Position numbers and translations under genes: made by a program
Shown here: piece after piece, positions 41,860 to 47,497 of the stretch
Layout: each line of letters starts with the position of its first letter
Position numbering within the stretch: the stretch's first letter is position 1
NCBI RefSeq assembly: GCF_003594885.1
Contig: NZ_QZEZ01000006.1
Span: 186,001 to 250,000 of the forward strand
Direction of reading: 5' to 3'
From: Vallicoccus soli
GTDB taxonomy: Bacteria; Actinomycetota; Actinomycetes; Motilibacterales; Motilibacteraceae
Length of the DNA stretch: 64,000 bases
Notes under the pieces: model-generated
Database searches by the model: none
Told to the model about the DNA's origin: nothing
What the model saw: only the letters and a program-made list of their open reading frames with translations

Positions 41860-42821
41860 CGCGGCACCTCGACCGGGGCGCCGGTGCGCGCGGACTCGGC
41901 GAGCGCCCAGCCCACCCGGTGCGTGCGCAGCGCCTCGGCGTAGGGCACGCGGACGAGCGAGGGGTCGCCGGTGCGCACCGCCGCGCAGAACTCGGCGTCG
42001 ACCCGCTGCTTGGACACCCCGTCGTCGGGGACGCGCTCGCTGCGCCCGTCGACCTCGAGGCGGGTCTCGAGCTCCCCGACCTCGACGAGGGTGCGCTCGC
42101 CGACCAGCGTCAGGGACGCCGCGTGCTTGCGGTCGAGCAGCGAGGTGGCGACCAGCGTCGCGACGGCGCCGCCGTCGAGGACGAGCGTCGCCGCGGTCGC
42201 CGCGTCCACCAGGGCGGGGTCGCGGTCCGGCAGGGCCGCGGCGTGCGCGCTGACCCGCACGGGCTCGCCGGCGAGCAGGCGCAGCACGTCGAGCAGGTGC
42301 GTCGCCTGCTCCACGAGCTGCCCGCCGGACAGGTCGCGCCGCGGCCACCACGCGACCGGGGGCACCTTGTCGAGCCAGGCGCCGTGGGCGAGTCGTACGG
42401 GGGTGCCGTCCAGCGCCTCGCGCGCCCGCTCGACCCCGGGCATCCCGCGCCAGTGGTAGCCGGTCGCGGTGACCAGCCCGGCCGCCGCGACCTCCGCCGC
42501 GACCGCCTCGGCCGTCGCCAGGTCCGCGGCCAGCGGCTTCTCCACGAGGAACGGCAGGCCCGCCGCGACGACCGCCCGCTCGGCGTCGCCGTGGGCGAAC
42601 GGCGGCAGGCAGAGCCACACCGCGTCGAGCCCGGGCGCGGCGAGGAGCGCGTCGAGGTCCGGGTACGCCGTCGCCCCGTGCTCGTCCGCCAGCGCGCGGG
42701 CCCGCCCGGCGTCGGTGTCGGTCACCGCGACGAGCGACACCCCCTCGAGCCCCGCCAGCACCTGCGCGTGCCGCGCCCCGACCCCGCCCGCCCCGACCAG
42801 CCCCGCCCGCAGCCCGTCCAT
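41856..42821 (-). CDS. Gfo/Idh/MocA-family oxidoreductase
   Basis: NAD(P)-dependent oxidoreductase of 321 residues. The Rossmann motif is LVGAGGVGARHAQVLAG, and the catalytic Lys is in FLVEKPLAADLATAEA, with HLLDVLRLL further on. These enzymes oxidise hydroxyls on sugars or inositols. Good ribosome binding site GGAGGAGG just before the ATG. First gene of the operon with the MDR-like dehydrogenase. Confidence 0.93.
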   Translation of the reverse strand: MDGLRAGLVGAGGVGARHAQVLAGLEGVSLVAVTDTDAGRARALADEHGATAYPDLDALLAAPGLDAVWLCLPPFAHGDAERAVVAAGLPFLVEKPLAADLATAEAVAAEVAAAGLVTATGYHWRGMPGVERAREALDGTPVRLAHGAWLDKVPPVAWWPRRDLSGGQLVEQATHLLDVLRLLAGEPVRVSAHAAALPDRDPALVDAATAATLVLDGGAVATLVATSLLDRKHAASLTLVGERTLVEVGELETRLEVDGRSERVPDDGVSKQRVDAEFCAAVRTGDPSLVRVPYAEALRTHRVGWALAESARTGAPVEVPR

Positions 42822-42906
42822 GGGCCTCCTCCCGCTCGATGGTGCCGACGAGCACCGGCATGCCCACGCGGTCCCGGTCCACCCCTGCGGGTGCGAGGGT
42901 GGGGGA

Positions 42907-43653
42907 GTGCGCGACGACCTCGGCCTCGACGTGGCGGTGCCGGCGGATGTGCGGCGGGTGGTGAGCCTCGTGCCTTCGCTGACCGAGGCGGTCGCCGCCA
43001 CCGGGCGCGGGCTGCTCGTGGGCGCGACGGACTGGTGCAGCCACCCGCCGGACCTCGCGGTGCGCAGGGTGCGGGGCACGAAGAACCCCGACGTCGCCGC
43101 GGTCGTCGACCTCGCGCCCGACCTCGTCCTGGCCAACCAGGAGGAGAACCGCGCCGCCGACCTCGACGCCCTGCGCGCCGCCGGGCTCGCGGTGTGGGTG
43201 ACCGACGTCCGTACGGTCGACGGCGCCCTCGCCTCGCTCGGCCGCGCGCTCGGCGCCTGCGGGCTCGGCCGACCGGGCTGGCTGGACGCGGCGGCCGCGG
43301 CCTGGGCCGCGGTGCCGGAGCCGGCCGTGCGGCGCCGGGCGGTCGTGCCCGTGTGGCGGCGGCCGTGGATGGCGCTGGGCCGCGACACCTTCGCCGGCGA
43401 CGTCCTGCGCCGGCTCGGCGTCGACCACGTGCTCGCGGACCACCCGGAGCGCTACCCCCGGTTCGACCCGGCGGCGCTCGGCCCGCTCGACCTCGTCGTG
43501 CTGCCCGACGAGCCGTACGCCTTCACCGCCGACGACGGCCCGGAGGCCTTCCCCGGCGTCCCCGCCGCCCTCGTCGACGGGCGCTCCCTCACCTGGTACG
43601 GCCCGAGCATGGTCGAGGCACCCGCCCGCCTGGCGGCCGCGCTCGACGTCTAG
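42907..43653 (+). CDS. Helical-backbone metal-receptor protein without signal peptide
   Basis: BtuF/FepB-fold protein of 248 residues. RRVVSLVPSLTEAVAATG, GATDWCSHP, GTKNPDVAAVVDLAPDLVLANQEENRAADLDAL and the C-terminal GPSMVEAPARL match vitamin B12/metal-chelate receptor proteins. There is no signal peptide or lipobox, and no permease or ATPase gene is adjacent. It is therefore either cytoplasmic or served by a transporter elsewhere. The cobalamin enzyme IcmF is encoded 0.6 kb downstream, which makes a B12 link tempting but unproven. Confidence 0.83.
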   Translation: MRDDLGLDVAVPADVRRVVSLVPSLTEAVAATGRGLLVGATDWCSHPPDLAVRRVRGTKNPDVAAVVDLAPDLVLANQEENRAADLDALRAAGLAVWVTDVRTVDGALASLGRALGACGLGRPGWLDAAAAAWAAVPEPAVRRRAVVPVWRRPWMALGRDTFAGDVLRRLGVDHVLADHPERYPRFDPAALGPLDLVVLPDEPYAFTADDGPEAFPGVPAALVDGRSLTWYGPSMVEAPARLAAALDV

Positions 43654-43659
43654 CGCCCG

Positions 43660-44166
43660 TCAGAAGTCGCCGGCGTCGCGGCGCAGGTCGGCGAGGACGT
43701 CGACGAGGCGCCGCGCCCGCTCGGCGTCGAGGCCGGGCGCGGCGAACACCTCGGCGTTGAGCCGGGCCGTGGCGGCGAGGGCGAGGTCGCGCCCCGCGGG
43801 CGTCAGCGCGACGAGGGTGGTGCGGCGGTCGCTGGGGTGCTGCTCGCGGCGCACGAGACCGGCGGCCTCGAGCCGGTCGACGGCGTTCGTGACGCTCGTC
43901 GGGTGCACCTGCAGCCGCGCGCCGATCTTCGCCATGGGCAGGGAGCCGGCGCGGCTGAAGTGCAGCAGGACGAGGAGCTCGTAGCGCGCGAAGGTGACGC
44001 CCAGCGGGCGCAGCACCGCCTCGACGCGCGCCAGCACGATCTGCTGGGCGCGCATGAGCGAGGTGACGGCGGCCATGCCGTCGGCCGCCTCGCCCCAGCC
44101 GTGCGCGACCCACTGCCGGTGCGCCTCGGCGACGGGGTCCAGGGCGAGGGCGGGCGTGTCCGGCAC
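43660..44166 (-). CDS. MarR-family transcriptional regulator
   Basis: Winged-helix regulator of 168 residues: LPMAKIGARLQVHPTSVTNAVDRLEAAGLV then the wing RREQHPSDRRTTLVALTPAG. It is divergent from icmF, with a 97-bp gap holding two GGACGTCC palindromes. Very similar MarR genes accompany icmF in other actinobacteria as far as I know, so it is probably its repressor. TACGAT ends 7 bases before the GTG at 44166. Confidence 0.92.
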   Translation of the reverse strand: MPDTPALALDPVAEAHRQWVAHGWGEAADGMAAVTSLMRAQQIVLARVEAVLRPLGVTFARYELLVLLHFSRAGSLPMAKIGARLQVHPTSVTNAVDRLEAAGLVRREQHPSDRRTTLVALTPAGRDLALAATARLNAEVFAAPGLDAERARRLVDVLADLRRDAGDF

Positions 44167-44186
44167 GGCGCCGATCGTACGCCCGT

Positions 44187-44211
44187 GGACGTCCGTCGGT
44201 AGGACGTCCTA
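44187..44211. promoter_or_regulatory. Paired GGACGTCC palindromes, MarR operator candidates
   Basis: GGACGTCC at 44187-44194 and again within the 12-bp perfect palindrome TAGGACGTCCTA at 44200-44211, offset 15 bp. The second overlaps the probable icmF -10 hexamer TAGCAT (44210-44215). Confidence 0.65.
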
Positions 44212-44263
44212 GCATCGGGGGGTCCCGGCACCCGGGGCACCCTCGACGACGAGGAGCACCGCC

Positions 44264-47200
44264 GTGAGCGACGCCCCGGCCCTGCACGTCCCCTCGCGGC
44301 CGGTCCGGCTCGTGACCGCGGCGAGCCTCTTCGACGGCCACGACGCCGCCATCAACGTCATGCGCCGGCTGCTGCAGGCCCAGGGCGCGGAGGTGGTCCA
44401 CCTGGGGCACGACCGCTCGGTCGAGGACGTCGTCACCGCGGCGGTGCAGGAGGACGTGCAGGGCGTGGCCGTGTCGTCGTACCAGGGCGGGCACGTCGAG
44501 TACTTCGGCTACCTGGTCGAGCGGCTGCGCGAGCGCGGGGCCGGGCACGTCAGGGTGTACGGCGGCGGCGGCGGCGTCATCGTGCCGGAGGAGATCGCCC
44601 TGCTCGCCGGGCGCGGGGTGCGCATCTTCAGCCCGCAGGACGGCCAGCGGCTCGGTCTGCCCGGCATGGTCAACACCCTCGTGCGCGAGTGCGACGTCGA
44701 CCTCGCCGCCGACGGGCCCGACGTCGACGCGCTGCTGGCCGGGGACGAGGCCGCGCTCGCGCGCGCCGTCACCGTGCTCGAGGCGGGGGCCGACCCGGCC
44801 CTGGCCGAGCGCGTGCGCTCCGCCCCGCCCGTCCCCGTGCTCGGCATCACCGGCACGGGCGGCTCGGGGAAGTCCTCCCTGACCGACGAGCTGGTCCGCC
44901 GGCTGCGCCGCGACACCGAGGACGAGGTGCGCGTCGCGGTGCTCGCCGTGGACCCCTCGCGCCGTCGCGGCGGGGGCGCCCTGCTCGGCGACCGCATCCG
45001 GATGGGCAGCATCGCCGCCGGGACCGTGTTCTTCCGCTCCCTCGCCACCCGCAGCCCCGGGGCCCAGGTGCCCGAGCACCTCGGGGACTGCATCGCCGCC
45101 TGCGCCGCGGCCGGCGTCGACCTCGTCGTCCTGGAGACGCCGGGCATCGGTCAGGGCGACGCCGCGGTCGTCCCGTTCTCCGACGTCGCGCTCTACGTCA
45201 TGACGCCGGACTACGGCGCCGCCAGCCAGCTCGAGAAGATCGACATGCTCGACCTCGCCGACGTGGTCGCGGTCAACAAGTTCGAGCGCCGCGGCGCCGA
45301 GGACGCCCGCCGCGACGTGGCCCGCCAGGTGGTCCGCAACCGGGAGGCCTTCGGGACGCCCTGGGAGGAGATGCCGGTCTTCGGCACGAGCGCGGCCCGG
45401 TTCGACGACGACGGGGTCACGGCCCTCTACCACCACGTCGTGGACCTGCTGCGGGGCAAGGGCCTCACCGCGCCGACCGGGGCGCTGCCGCGGGTCGCCA
45501 CGCGGGTGTCCACCGGGCTGACCAGCGTGCTGCCGCCCTCGCGGGTGCGCTACCTCGCCGAGGTGGCCGACACGGTGCGCGCCCACCACCAGCGGACCCG
45601 CCAGCAGGCCGACGCGGCACGGCGCCGGCAGCAGCACGCGGCGACGTACGACGCCCTGCTCGCGGCGGGCGAGGAGGAGACGGCCCGCGCGGTGGCCGCG
45701 CTGCGCGACGCGGCGGAGGCCGAGCTCGACGGCGACGTGCGCAGCGGGCTCGAGCGCTGGCCGCAGGTGGTGGAGGCGTACTCCGCGGACGAGCTGGTGT
45801 ACCGCGTGCGGGGGCGGGAGGTGCGCGCGCCGCTGCGCGTGGAGACGCTGTCGGGGTCGCGGCTGCCGCGGGTGGCCCTGCCCCGCACGCGGGACCACGG
45901 CGAGCTCGTGGCGTTCCTGCGCGGGGAGGGCCTGCCCGGGTCCTTCCCCTACACGGCGGGCGTGTTCCCGCTGCGGCGCAGCGGCGAGGCGCCGGCGCGC
46001 ATGTTCGCCGGCGAGGGCGACCCGGCGCGCACGAACCGGCGGTTCCACCTGCTCAGCGAGGGGCAGCCCGCGACCCGGCTGTCCACCGCGTTCGACTCGG
46101 TGACCCTCTACGGGCGCGACCCGTCCGACCGGCCCGACGTGTACGGCAAGGTCGGCACCTCCGGCGTCTCGGTCGCCACGCTCGACGACGTGGCCGTGCT
46201 CTACTCCGGGTTCGACCTCTGCTCGCCGACGACGTCGGTGTCGATGACGATCAACGGGCCCGCGCCCGCCGTGCTGGCGATGTTCCTGTGCACCGCCGTC
46301 GACCAGCAGCTCGACCGCTTCCGCGAGGAGCACGGCCGCGAGCCGAGCGCGGACGAGGCGGAGGAGGTGCGCAGGAGAGCGTTGTCCACGGTCCGGGGGA
46401 CGGTGCAGGCCGACATCCTCAAGGAGGACCAGGGGCAGAACACCTGCATCTTCTCCACCGAGTTCGCCCTGCGGTGCATGGCCGACGTGCAGGAGTGGTT
46501 CGTCGAGCACGGGGTCCGCAACTTCTACTCGGTGAGCATCAGCGGCTACCACATCGCCGAGGCCGGGGCGAACCCGATCAGCCAGCTCGCCTTCACCCTG
46601 GCGAACGGCTTCACGTACGTCGAGGCGTACCTCGCCCGCGGCATGGCGGTCGACGACTTCGCGCCGAACCTCTCGTTCTTCTTCAGCAACGGGATGGACG
46701 CGGAGTACACCGTGCTCGGCCGGGTCGCCCGGCGCATCTGGGCGGTGGCGATGCGGGACCGCTACGGCGCCGACGAGCGCTCGCAGAAGCTGAAGTACCA
46801 CGTGCAGACGTCGGGGCGGTCGCTGCACGCGCAGGAGATGTCGTTCAACGACATCCGCACGACGCTGCAGGCGCTGTGCGCGGTCTACGACAGCGCCAAC
46901 AGCCTGCACACCAACGCGTACGACGAGGCGGTCACCACGCCGACGGCGGAGTCGGTGCGCCGCGCCCTCGCGATCCAGATGGTCATCGACCGCGAGTGGG
47001 GGATCGCCGACAACGAGAACCCGCTGCAGGGCAGCTTCGTCGTGGAGGAGCTCACCGAGCTCGTCGAGCAGGCGGTGCTCGAGGAGTTCGACCGGATCGC
47101 CGAGCGCGGCGGGGTCCTCGGCGCCATGGAAACCGGTTACCAGCGAGGGCGCATCCAGGACGAGTCGATGCTCTACGAGCACCGCAAGCACGACGGCAGC

Positions 47201-47497
47201 CTCCCGATCATCGGCGTCAACACCTTCCTGGCGCCGGAGGGGGACCGCGAGGAGCCGGCCCCGGTCGAGCTGGCCCGCGCCACCGAGGAGGAGAAGCGCT
47301 CGCAGCTGCGCCGGCTCGCGGAGTTCCACGAGCGGCACCGCCACGAGGCGCCGGCGGCGCTCGCGAGGCTGCGCGAGGTCGCGACGTCCGGCGGCAACGT
47401 CTTCGACGCGCTCATGGAGGCCGTGCGCTGCTGCTCGCTGGGGCAGATCACCGAGGCGTTCTTCGAGGTGGGCGGCCAGTACCGCCGCAGCGTCTGA
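44264..47497 (+). CDS. icmF: Fused isobutyryl-CoA mutase (IcmF)
   Basis: Interconverts isobutyryl-CoA and n-butyryl-CoA with adenosylcobalamin; may also accept related acyl-CoAs. The 1077-residue protein combines, in order: a B12-binding domain with SLFDGHDAAIN near residue 22; a G-protein chaperone domain with Walker motif ITGTGGSGKSS near 196, DPSRRRGGGALLGDRIRM, and NKFERRGAED near 337; and a C-terminal mutase barrel with TYGRDP/KVGTSGVS and HYHIAEAGANPI-like motifs. Domain order and length are those of IcmF. Start GTG with GAGGAG upstream. It is monocistronic and probably repressed by the divergent MarR protein. Confidence 0.96.
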   Translation: MSDAPALHVPSRPVRLVTAASLFDGHDAAINVMRRLLQAQGAEVVHLGHDRSVEDVVTAAVQEDVQGVAVSSYQGGHVEYFGYLVERLRERGAGHVRVYGGGGGVIVPEEIALLAGRGVRIFSPQDGQRLGLPGMVNTLVRECDVDLAADGPDVDALLAGDEAALARAVTVLEAGADPALAERVRSAPPVPVLGITGTGGSGKSSLTDELVRRLRRDTEDEVRVAVLAVDPSRRRGGGALLGDRIRMGSIAAGTVFFRSLATRSPGAQVPEHLGDCIAACAAAGVDLVVLETPGIGQGDAAVVPFSDVALYVMTPDYGAASQLEKIDMLDLADVVAVNKFERRGAEDARRDVARQVVRNREAFGTPWEEMPVFGTSAARFDDDGVTALYHHVVDLLRGKGLTAPTGALPRVATRVSTGLTSVLPPSRVRYLAEVADTVRAHHQRTRQQADAARRRQQHAATYDALLAAGEEETARAVAALRDAAEAELDGDVRSGLERWPQVVEAYSADELVYRVRGREVRAPLRVETLSGSRLPRVALPRTRDHGELVAFLRGEGLPGSFPYTAGVFPLRRSGEAPARMFAGEGDPARTNRRFHLLSEGQPATRLSTAFDSVTLYGRDPSDRPDVYGKVGTSGVSVATLDDVAVLYSGFDLCSPTTSVSMTINGPAPAVLAMFLCTAVDQQLDRFREEHGREPSADEAEEVRRRALSTVRGTVQADILKEDQGQNTCIFSTEFALRCMADVQEWFVEHGVRNFYSVSISGYHIAEAGANPISQLAFTLANGFTYVEAYLARGMAVDDFAPNLSFFFSNGMDAEYTVLGRVARRIWAVAMRDRYGADERSQKLKYHVQTSGRSLHAQEMSFNDIRTTLQALCAVYDSANSLHTNAYDEAVTTPTAESVRRALAIQMVIDREWGIADNENPLQGSFVVEELTELVEQAVLEEFDRIAERGGVLGAMETGYQRGRIQDESMLYEHRKHDGSLPIIGVNTFLAPEGDREEPAPVELARATEEEKRSQLRRLAEFHERHRHEAPAALARLREVATSGGNVFDALMEAVRCCSLGQITEAFFEVGGQYRRSV

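Follow-up and report, generated by a model that had tools for sequence, protein, structure and literature searches.

A conserved palindrome in front of icmF in Vallicoccus soli as the probable operator of a Sco5413-group MarR regulator of isobutyryl-CoA genes

The stretch of Vallicoccus soli DNA analysed here in full (64,000 nucleotides; hereafter, the window) contains a gene for a fused isobutyryl-CoA mutase, icmF, and a divergent gene for a MarR-family regulator, marR (Table 1). The two genes are separated by a gap of 97 bp, inside which lie two copies of the 8-bp palindrome GGACGTCC with a start-to-start spacing of 15 bp. The downstream copy forms the centre of the 12-bp palindrome TAGGACGTCCTA, which overlaps by two bases with TAGCAT, a non-consensus hexamer that is plausible as the icmF -10 element. 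The first-pass annotation had described two GGACGTCC palindromes 15 bp apart, the second lying in a 12-bp palindrome that touches the -10, and its coordinates proved to be exact.

Table 1. Genes, predicted sites and putative promoter elements around the marR-icmF gap (positions in the window).
Feature	Position	Strand	Remarks
ORF convergent with marR	42469-43653	+	NF038402 match
marR	43660..44166	-	MarR-family regulator, 168 aa; divergent from icmF; PF01047
Putative marR -10, TACGAT	44174..44179	-	7 bp before GTG at 44166; read from sequence only
Secondary operator-like site, GTGGACGTCCGT	44185..44196	.	15 bp upstream of main site
-35-like hexamer, TGGACG	44186-44191		within secondary site
Upstream GGACGTCC	44187-44194
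Main operator (predicted), CGGTAGGACGTCCTAGCA	44197..44214	.	core palindrome 44200-44211; score 16.3
12-bp palindrome TAGGACGTCCTA	44200-44211		core of main operator
Downstream GGACGTCC	44202-44209		centre of TAGGACGTCCTA
Putative icmF -10, TAGCAT	44210..44215	+	overlaps main operator; read from sequence
icmF	44264..47497	+	fused isobutyryl-CoA mutase/MeaB-type GTPase, 1077 aa; NF045497

The hexamer TGGACG, located mostly inside the first GGACGTCC, is 18 bp from TAGCAT, and the pair was judged by eye to be a weak sigma-70 match. A strict sigma-70 scan of positions 44060-44320, based on near-consensus -35 and -10 elements, returned 0 promoters. Since TACGAT ends 7 bp before its GTG, marR may be leaderless. 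The leader was also searched for a B12 riboswitch or other RNA, and no Rfam match was obtained at E<=0.1 in 43600-44600. The ORF that converges with marR matches NF038402 (helical-backbone metal receptor) over residues 163-379 and, weakly, BtuF. The real start codon probably lies about 160 codons further in, and a B12-related role next to a B12 enzyme is possible.

Both gene assignments of the first-pass annotation hold. The icmF product scores 1856.9 bits against NCBIfam NF045497 (equivalog cut-off 1500), its chain carries B12-binding, MeaB and mutase domains, and the residues at the isobutyryl-CoA mutase selectivity positions are F581 and Q725, all of which agrees with membership in IcmF and, more broadly, IcmF/IcmA. 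The regulator belongs to the MarR family according to PF01047 (53.1 bits, cut-off 24.6) and PF12802 (48.3 bits, cut-off 27). Among solved structures, its best match is 4b8x (E 2.9e-41 over 142 aligned query residues), to which it is related over its length and which we take to be Sco5413. A MarR orthologue found near icmA (L124) is almost identical to 4b8x over 143 residues. Thirteen relatives share 47-75% identity with the window MarR, and in the recognition-helix stretch of 14 MarR sequences, H88, S91 and T93 are invariant (V87 too in one tally), with T90 and V92 nearly so. Full-length similarity and conservation of the recognition helix place the window protein in the 4b8x (Sco5413) orthologous group. 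The title of Holley et al. 2013 reportedly calls Sco5413 a MarR regulator that is widespread in actinomycetes and of "unknown function".

The group is indeed common: of 393 class genomes, 267 carry a MarR match at E<=1e-25 and 115 an IcmF match at E<=1e-200. MarR relatives were collected from 60 genomes, together with 80 loci from named genomes, and they occur in several arrangements: marR may be divergent from icmF, come after it, or lie close to a separate mutase gene or to valine-catabolism genes. In 61 of the 80 named loci, the fetched stretch contains no icmF. Four genomes of the window's own family (G001-G004) have neither an IcmF match at E<=1e-200 nor a MarR match at E<=1e-25, and the marR/icmF pair looks patchy within this family, as judged by such similarity searches.

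When loci from different genomes are compared, TAGGACGTCCTA is found in front of many mutase genes near MarR loci, within the longer palindrome TAsTAGGACGTCCTAsTA. The strict form of this 18-bp pattern yields 61 sites in 59 of the 393 genomes, and its reversed control yields 0 matches. Each of the 61 sites fronts a gene of a narrow set (icmA 47, icmF 11, acyl-CoA dehydrogenase 2, mmsA 1), at -30 to +400 bp relative to the start of the target gene. The site in the window conforms to this operator, as proposed for the 4b8x group, with an intact 12-bp core and degenerate outer arms that hold 3 mismatches to TASTAGGACNTCCTASTA; its shuffle p of 0.005 is the minimum attainable with 200 shuffles.

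A relaxed search (<=1 mismatch) of the 101 genomes of the G007 family found matches in 15, with control matches in 3. Among the 16 loci obtained, 11 sites are upstream of mmsA, 4 have no assigned gene, and in one (L172) the site is flanked by marR and an acyl-CoA dehydrogenase-like gene. At the same stringency, 7 of 15 further genomes, picked because no icmF was seen beside MarR, gave a match and 8 gave none (control, 1/15). Their nine loci comprise five mmsA, one icmF, one acyl-CoA dehydrogenase, adjoined by a 3-hydroxyisobutyryl-CoA hydrolase gene, and two without an assigned gene. In Antrihabitans (L175), marR and mmsA are divergent and the palindrome is between them. One locus, L141, had been considered unrelated (rmlC); this was rejected, the gene being mmsA. 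The palindrome was also seen before acyl-CoA dehydrogenase-like genes in L129, L204, L172 and L178, which are possibly isobutyryl-CoA dehydrogenases. Sites without an assigned target were noted in L157, L163, L164, L171, L176, L181 and L086; in the last of these, from Actinoplanes, a site with 1 mismatch lies just upstream of marR, and the fetched stretch contains no icmF match. L163 shares its coordinates with L176, as does L165 with L180, so that each pair probably represents one genome under two labels.

The separate mutases that follow the palindrome were classified by their active-site residues. F80 and Q198 are the signature of isobutyryl-CoA mutase, with Tyr and Arg at these positions in methylmalonyl-CoA mutase, as the alignments also show. 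F80/Q198 was present in 39/39 loci, some of which are one gene fetched twice; the check covers loci other than the 31 strict-site loci fetched later. The separate mutases are therefore called IcmA, on the strength of these residues, and their identification as methylmalonyl-CoA mutase was rejected. In the icmF-type loci that cover both positions, F and Q were found in 26/26 (these loci include repeats of one gene); 18 further icmF-type loci cover one or neither position.

The operator is not specific to icmF, for it stands at icmA, mmsA and acyl-CoA dehydrogenase genes as well. The original model, in which the MarR protein represses an acyl-CoA mutase, stands with regard to the conserved site and the identities of the enzyme and the regulator; its scope was too narrow. 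The occurrence of the operator at icmF, icmA, mmsA and acyl-CoA dehydrogenase genes points to isobutyryl-CoA. IcmF, IcmA and the acyl-CoA dehydrogenase-mmsA-mmsB route all share this compound, a breakdown product of valine from which actinobacteria draw branched fatty acids and precursors of polyketides. In the one operon examined in the G007 family (L119), mmsA is followed by genes for an acyl-CoA dehydrogenase and 3-hydroxyisobutyrate dehydrogenase, in that order. According to excerpts of a study of S. albus, addition of L-valine raised butyryl/isobutyryl-CoA more than 100-fold and the mRNA of isobutyryl-CoA mutase by log2 5.2 (PMC8176718). Such induction is the behaviour expected of de-repression, and we infer that the mutase gene induced by valine in S. 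albus is the one near the MarR orthologue.

The identity of the ligand is the part of this picture that has the most serious competitor. That MmsA acts downstream of isobutyryl-CoA would suit another metabolite, such as methacrylyl-CoA, methylmalonate semialdehyde, n-butyryl-CoA, propionyl-CoA, free isobutyrate or valine itself, and we regard this as a real possibility at somewhat less than even odds; against it, isobutyryl-CoA is the one compound shared by all the marked routes, and late valine intermediates are unlikely in the window's genome, where no methylmalonate semialdehyde dehydrogenase (MMSDH) was found over the cut-off.

Does the site also occur in icmF upstream regions that were not chosen because they contain it? 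A matrix was built from icmA and mmsA sites: of 46 candidates, 42 were kept for palindromy (L131, L158, L059 and L159 were dropped), and 10 distinct sequences were used. On 35 icmF upstream regions, it scored at least 8 in 31 and in 0/35 of the within-gene controls. Of 30 neighbouring marR-icmF pairs that were selected solely for similarity to MarR, 26 have the site and L011, L012, L017 and L071 lack it; this set leaves out the window, its copies (L001, L002, L173) and the pattern-fetched L142, L143, L147 and L152. A second set of icmF upstream regions was collected blind to the site, and 77 of 89 contain it, as against 1/89 after one shuffle each. Ninety regions, drawn from the 115 IcmF-bearing genomes, had been fetched for this set, of which L308 (32 bases) was too short. 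The set leaves out G141, G267, G319 and G353 (no clear start), genomes already sampled and 11 with a strict site, and the start of G359 was estimated. The 12 regions without a site are those of G066, G070, G085, G146, G176, G193, G259, G271, G299, G315, G342 and G359.

By family, the second set gives 29/29 in f27, 24/27 in f18, 6/11 in f34, 5/5 in f38, 4/4 in f17, 2/2 each in f46, f33 and f29, 1/1 each in f4, f21 and f41, 0/2 in f13, and 0/1 each in f39 and f47. Many of the icmF sites in f18 and f34 are degenerate. The main contrary result, and a genuine exception, is family f13, in which the matrix scan recognised a site in 0/5 icmF upstream regions (L011, L012, L017, G070, G085). In these five genomes, marR is the divergent neighbour of icmF, and each genome has one to four MarR matches. 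One reading is that the operator of f13 was lost or changed. Absence of the sites from conserved marR/icmF pairs had been named at the outset as the finding that would speak against the model; most pairs and most site-blind upstream regions have the site, and f13 does not.

The two palindromes of the window are unequal, and the upstream copy is the weaker. With the icmA/mmsA matrix, the downstream site scores 16.3 over 18 bp and 23.2 over the 12-bp core, and the upstream site scores -8.5 and 4.4, respectively. The pairing itself was examined across promoters. Main sites scoring at least 12, with identical contexts merged, gave 72 contexts, 30 of them from icmF; removal of flanks at least 60% alike left 22, and 21 without the window, including the pattern-fetched L142, L147 and L152. 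The score threshold of 2 for calling a second site was chosen after looking at promoter scores, and matches at 10 bp, which reflect self-overlap of the palindrome, were excluded as second sites. In 12 of these 21 non-redundant icmF promoters, a second core-like, weaker site lies exactly 15 bp away, and other distances from 11 to 30 bp occur in 0-2 of the 21. The partner at 15 bp was found in 0/20 icmA and 0/9 mmsA promoters. In the 77 site-bearing promoters of the site-blind set, which were not thinned for relatedness, the best secondary match is at 15 bp in 30 and at any other distance in at most 4. The expectation that both sites would be conserved in relatives was thus borne out for the 15-bp spacing in the 12 promoters, with a second site that is degenerate. 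Several icmF promoters of f27 (G079, G145, G302, G341, G357, G364 and others) show a different feature, a near-perfect second palindrome 20-26 bp away.

Promoters differ in the side on which the partner is found: it is the -35 side in the window, L034, L038, L083 and L089, and the start-site side (+15) in L022, L027 and L113-L116. Because the downstream (+15) versions cannot be a -35 box, comparison of these promoters favours the twin as a real second operator. In the window, the upstream copy can be given a role with less certainty than the main site, because its 18-bp score is -8.5 and it coincides with a -35-like hexamer. It is conceivable, if rather unlikely, that the upstream GGACGTCC is the icmF -35 box alone and that the operator is single: the low score and the 18-bp spacing of TGGACG from TAGCAT would agree with this, as would the TTGACG that Terrabacter and Intrasporangium loci have in their -15 copies and the TTGACA at this place in L094. 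Against this, in many relatives, the second site comes after the -10-like arm, a position that no -35 can occupy; the -15 copies of the window, L034, L038, L083 and L089 read GGAC rather than TTGAC, the better -35; and icmA and mmsA also need a -35 and have no partner at 15 bp.

The distribution of the site also follows that of the regulator. None of the 59 strict-site genomes lacks a MarR match (E<=1e-25; lists compared by eye), with a hypergeometric P of 1e-11; by genera, the counts are 23/23 vs 82/137 (P 2e-6), and both values are uncorrected for phylogeny. MarR was counted by eye in 111 of the 115 IcmF-bearing genomes. The icmF-upstream site is found in 76 of 85 MarR-plus genomes vs 1 of 4 MarR-minus genomes (P 0.007). 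The one MarR-minus genome with a site, a good one, is G062, which is 78% complete. In the reverse direction, the strict site occurs in just 59 genomes vs MarR matches in 267. The co-occurrence is not independent of linkage, because marR often adjoins icmF or icmA. Of the 61 strict-site loci, 41 include a MarR gene within the fetched stretch (up to ~3 kb) and 20 do not; on account of these 20 loci, MarR is likely to act at a distance as well. The same 20 loci would allow MarR to be a mere neighbour of a palindrome bound by a BkdR-, PccD- or AccR-like protein, these being reported actinomycete regulators of branched-chain/short acyl-CoA metabolism in the available parts of PMC8176718; this is improbable given the presence of MarR in 59/59 strict-site genomes and its position as the divergent neighbour in the icmF and mmsA arrangements.

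Within the window and its own genome, the statistics of the palindromes are suggestive and not decisive alone. An enrichment of GGACGTCC in the window was rejected, as its frequency is ordinary (6 copies vs 5.76 expected). When six positions were placed at random in 64 kb, a pair 8-25 bp apart arose in 0.9% of draws. With <=1 mismatch, TAGGACGTCCTA occurs at one place in the 4.04-Mb genome and its reversed control at 2 places, which is why the local numbers do not settle the matter. No other targets were found in the window's own genome at <=3 mismatches (control, 3 matches). Chance words of a GC-rich genome, a reading in keeping with the expected frequency of GGACGTCC in the window and with a relaxed pattern no commoner than its control in the genome, are refuted by the placement of 61/61 sites, the 0 control matches in 393 genomes and the 77/89 vs 1/89 shuffled regions. 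Taken at the level of sequence, conservation across genomes is the decisive support for the palindrome.

The palindrome before icmF is, from its conservation and placement, very probably the docking site of the regulator. The window MarR would be the local member of the widespread actinobacterial 4b8x/Sco5413 group, with TAsTAGGACGTCCTAsTA as its operator. A MarR dimer bound at the -10 region of isobutyryl-CoA genes (icmF here; icmA, mmsA and acyl-CoA dehydrogenase genes elsewhere) would block RNA polymerase. The position of the operator over the -10 fits such repression, as do the right arms of the operator in relatives, many of which read TASTAT or TASTAA at the position of the window's -10. 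Repression of icmF may be tightened by a further dimer bound 15 bp from the first, either towards the -35, as in the window, or towards the start site, and valine-derived isobutyryl-CoA or a close acyl-CoA would release MarR. The regulator may also control its own gene. For the model as a whole, with a 4b8x/Sco5413-group MarR, the 18-bp operator, repression and release by isobutyryl-CoA, we estimate a probability of about 0.8; of its parts, we infer the binding, the repression and the ligand. That one MarR regulator and one palindrome control isobutyryl-CoA use across Actinomycetia, with targets that switch by lineage and a double site at a fixed 15-bp phase at icmF, seems likely to us.

If this is true, the 15-bp spacing (~1.4 helical turns) would place the two dimers almost opposite each other around the helix, and a function would be provided for a regulator whose structure was published as one of unknown function. 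An orphan regulator with a solved structure can now be tested as a regulator of isobutyryl-CoA (valine) use whose operator is defined and whose targets are listed, and the operator site could be used to predict or tune precursor supply. The kind of regulator is ordinary; what is newly proposed is the operator and the pathway. In the open-access literature (subscription papers are outside this search), neither the operator nor a function of the regulator was found in print, and none of three palindrome strings occurs in the open-access papers searched. In the portions of open-access papers checked, SCO5413 appears just in references, tables or figure legends. It is among the ChIP-seq targets of NdgR, a protein reported to regulate leucine biosynthesis among other pathways, according to the accessible part of PMC4340878.

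Several known systems can be compared with the proposed one. The window MarR differs from 4b8x/Sco5413 in its surroundings, since its gene is divergent from icmF and away from icmA. CouR (6c28) is likewise of the MarR family and is remote in sequence (matched at E 1.1e-4). It responds to a CoA thioester and releases DNA on acyl-CoA; its ligand is an aromatic CoA. BkdR, PccD and AccR act at the same metabolic node as is proposed for the window MarR. The targets of BkdR and PccD are the branched-chain dehydrogenase complex, those of AccR (TetR family) are short acyl-CoA genes, and no link to the palindrome is seen in the excerpts of the source (PMC8176718). In the methylmalonyl-CoA mutase operon of Saccharopolyspora erythraea (mutA, mutB, meaB, mutR), as given in excerpts of two papers, a regulator gene also lies beside a B12 mutase and meaB (PMC3733707, PMC6693128). 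The loci L134, L139 and L140, with the order meaB-like gene, marR, site and mutase, resemble this MutR operon in their gene neighbourhood.
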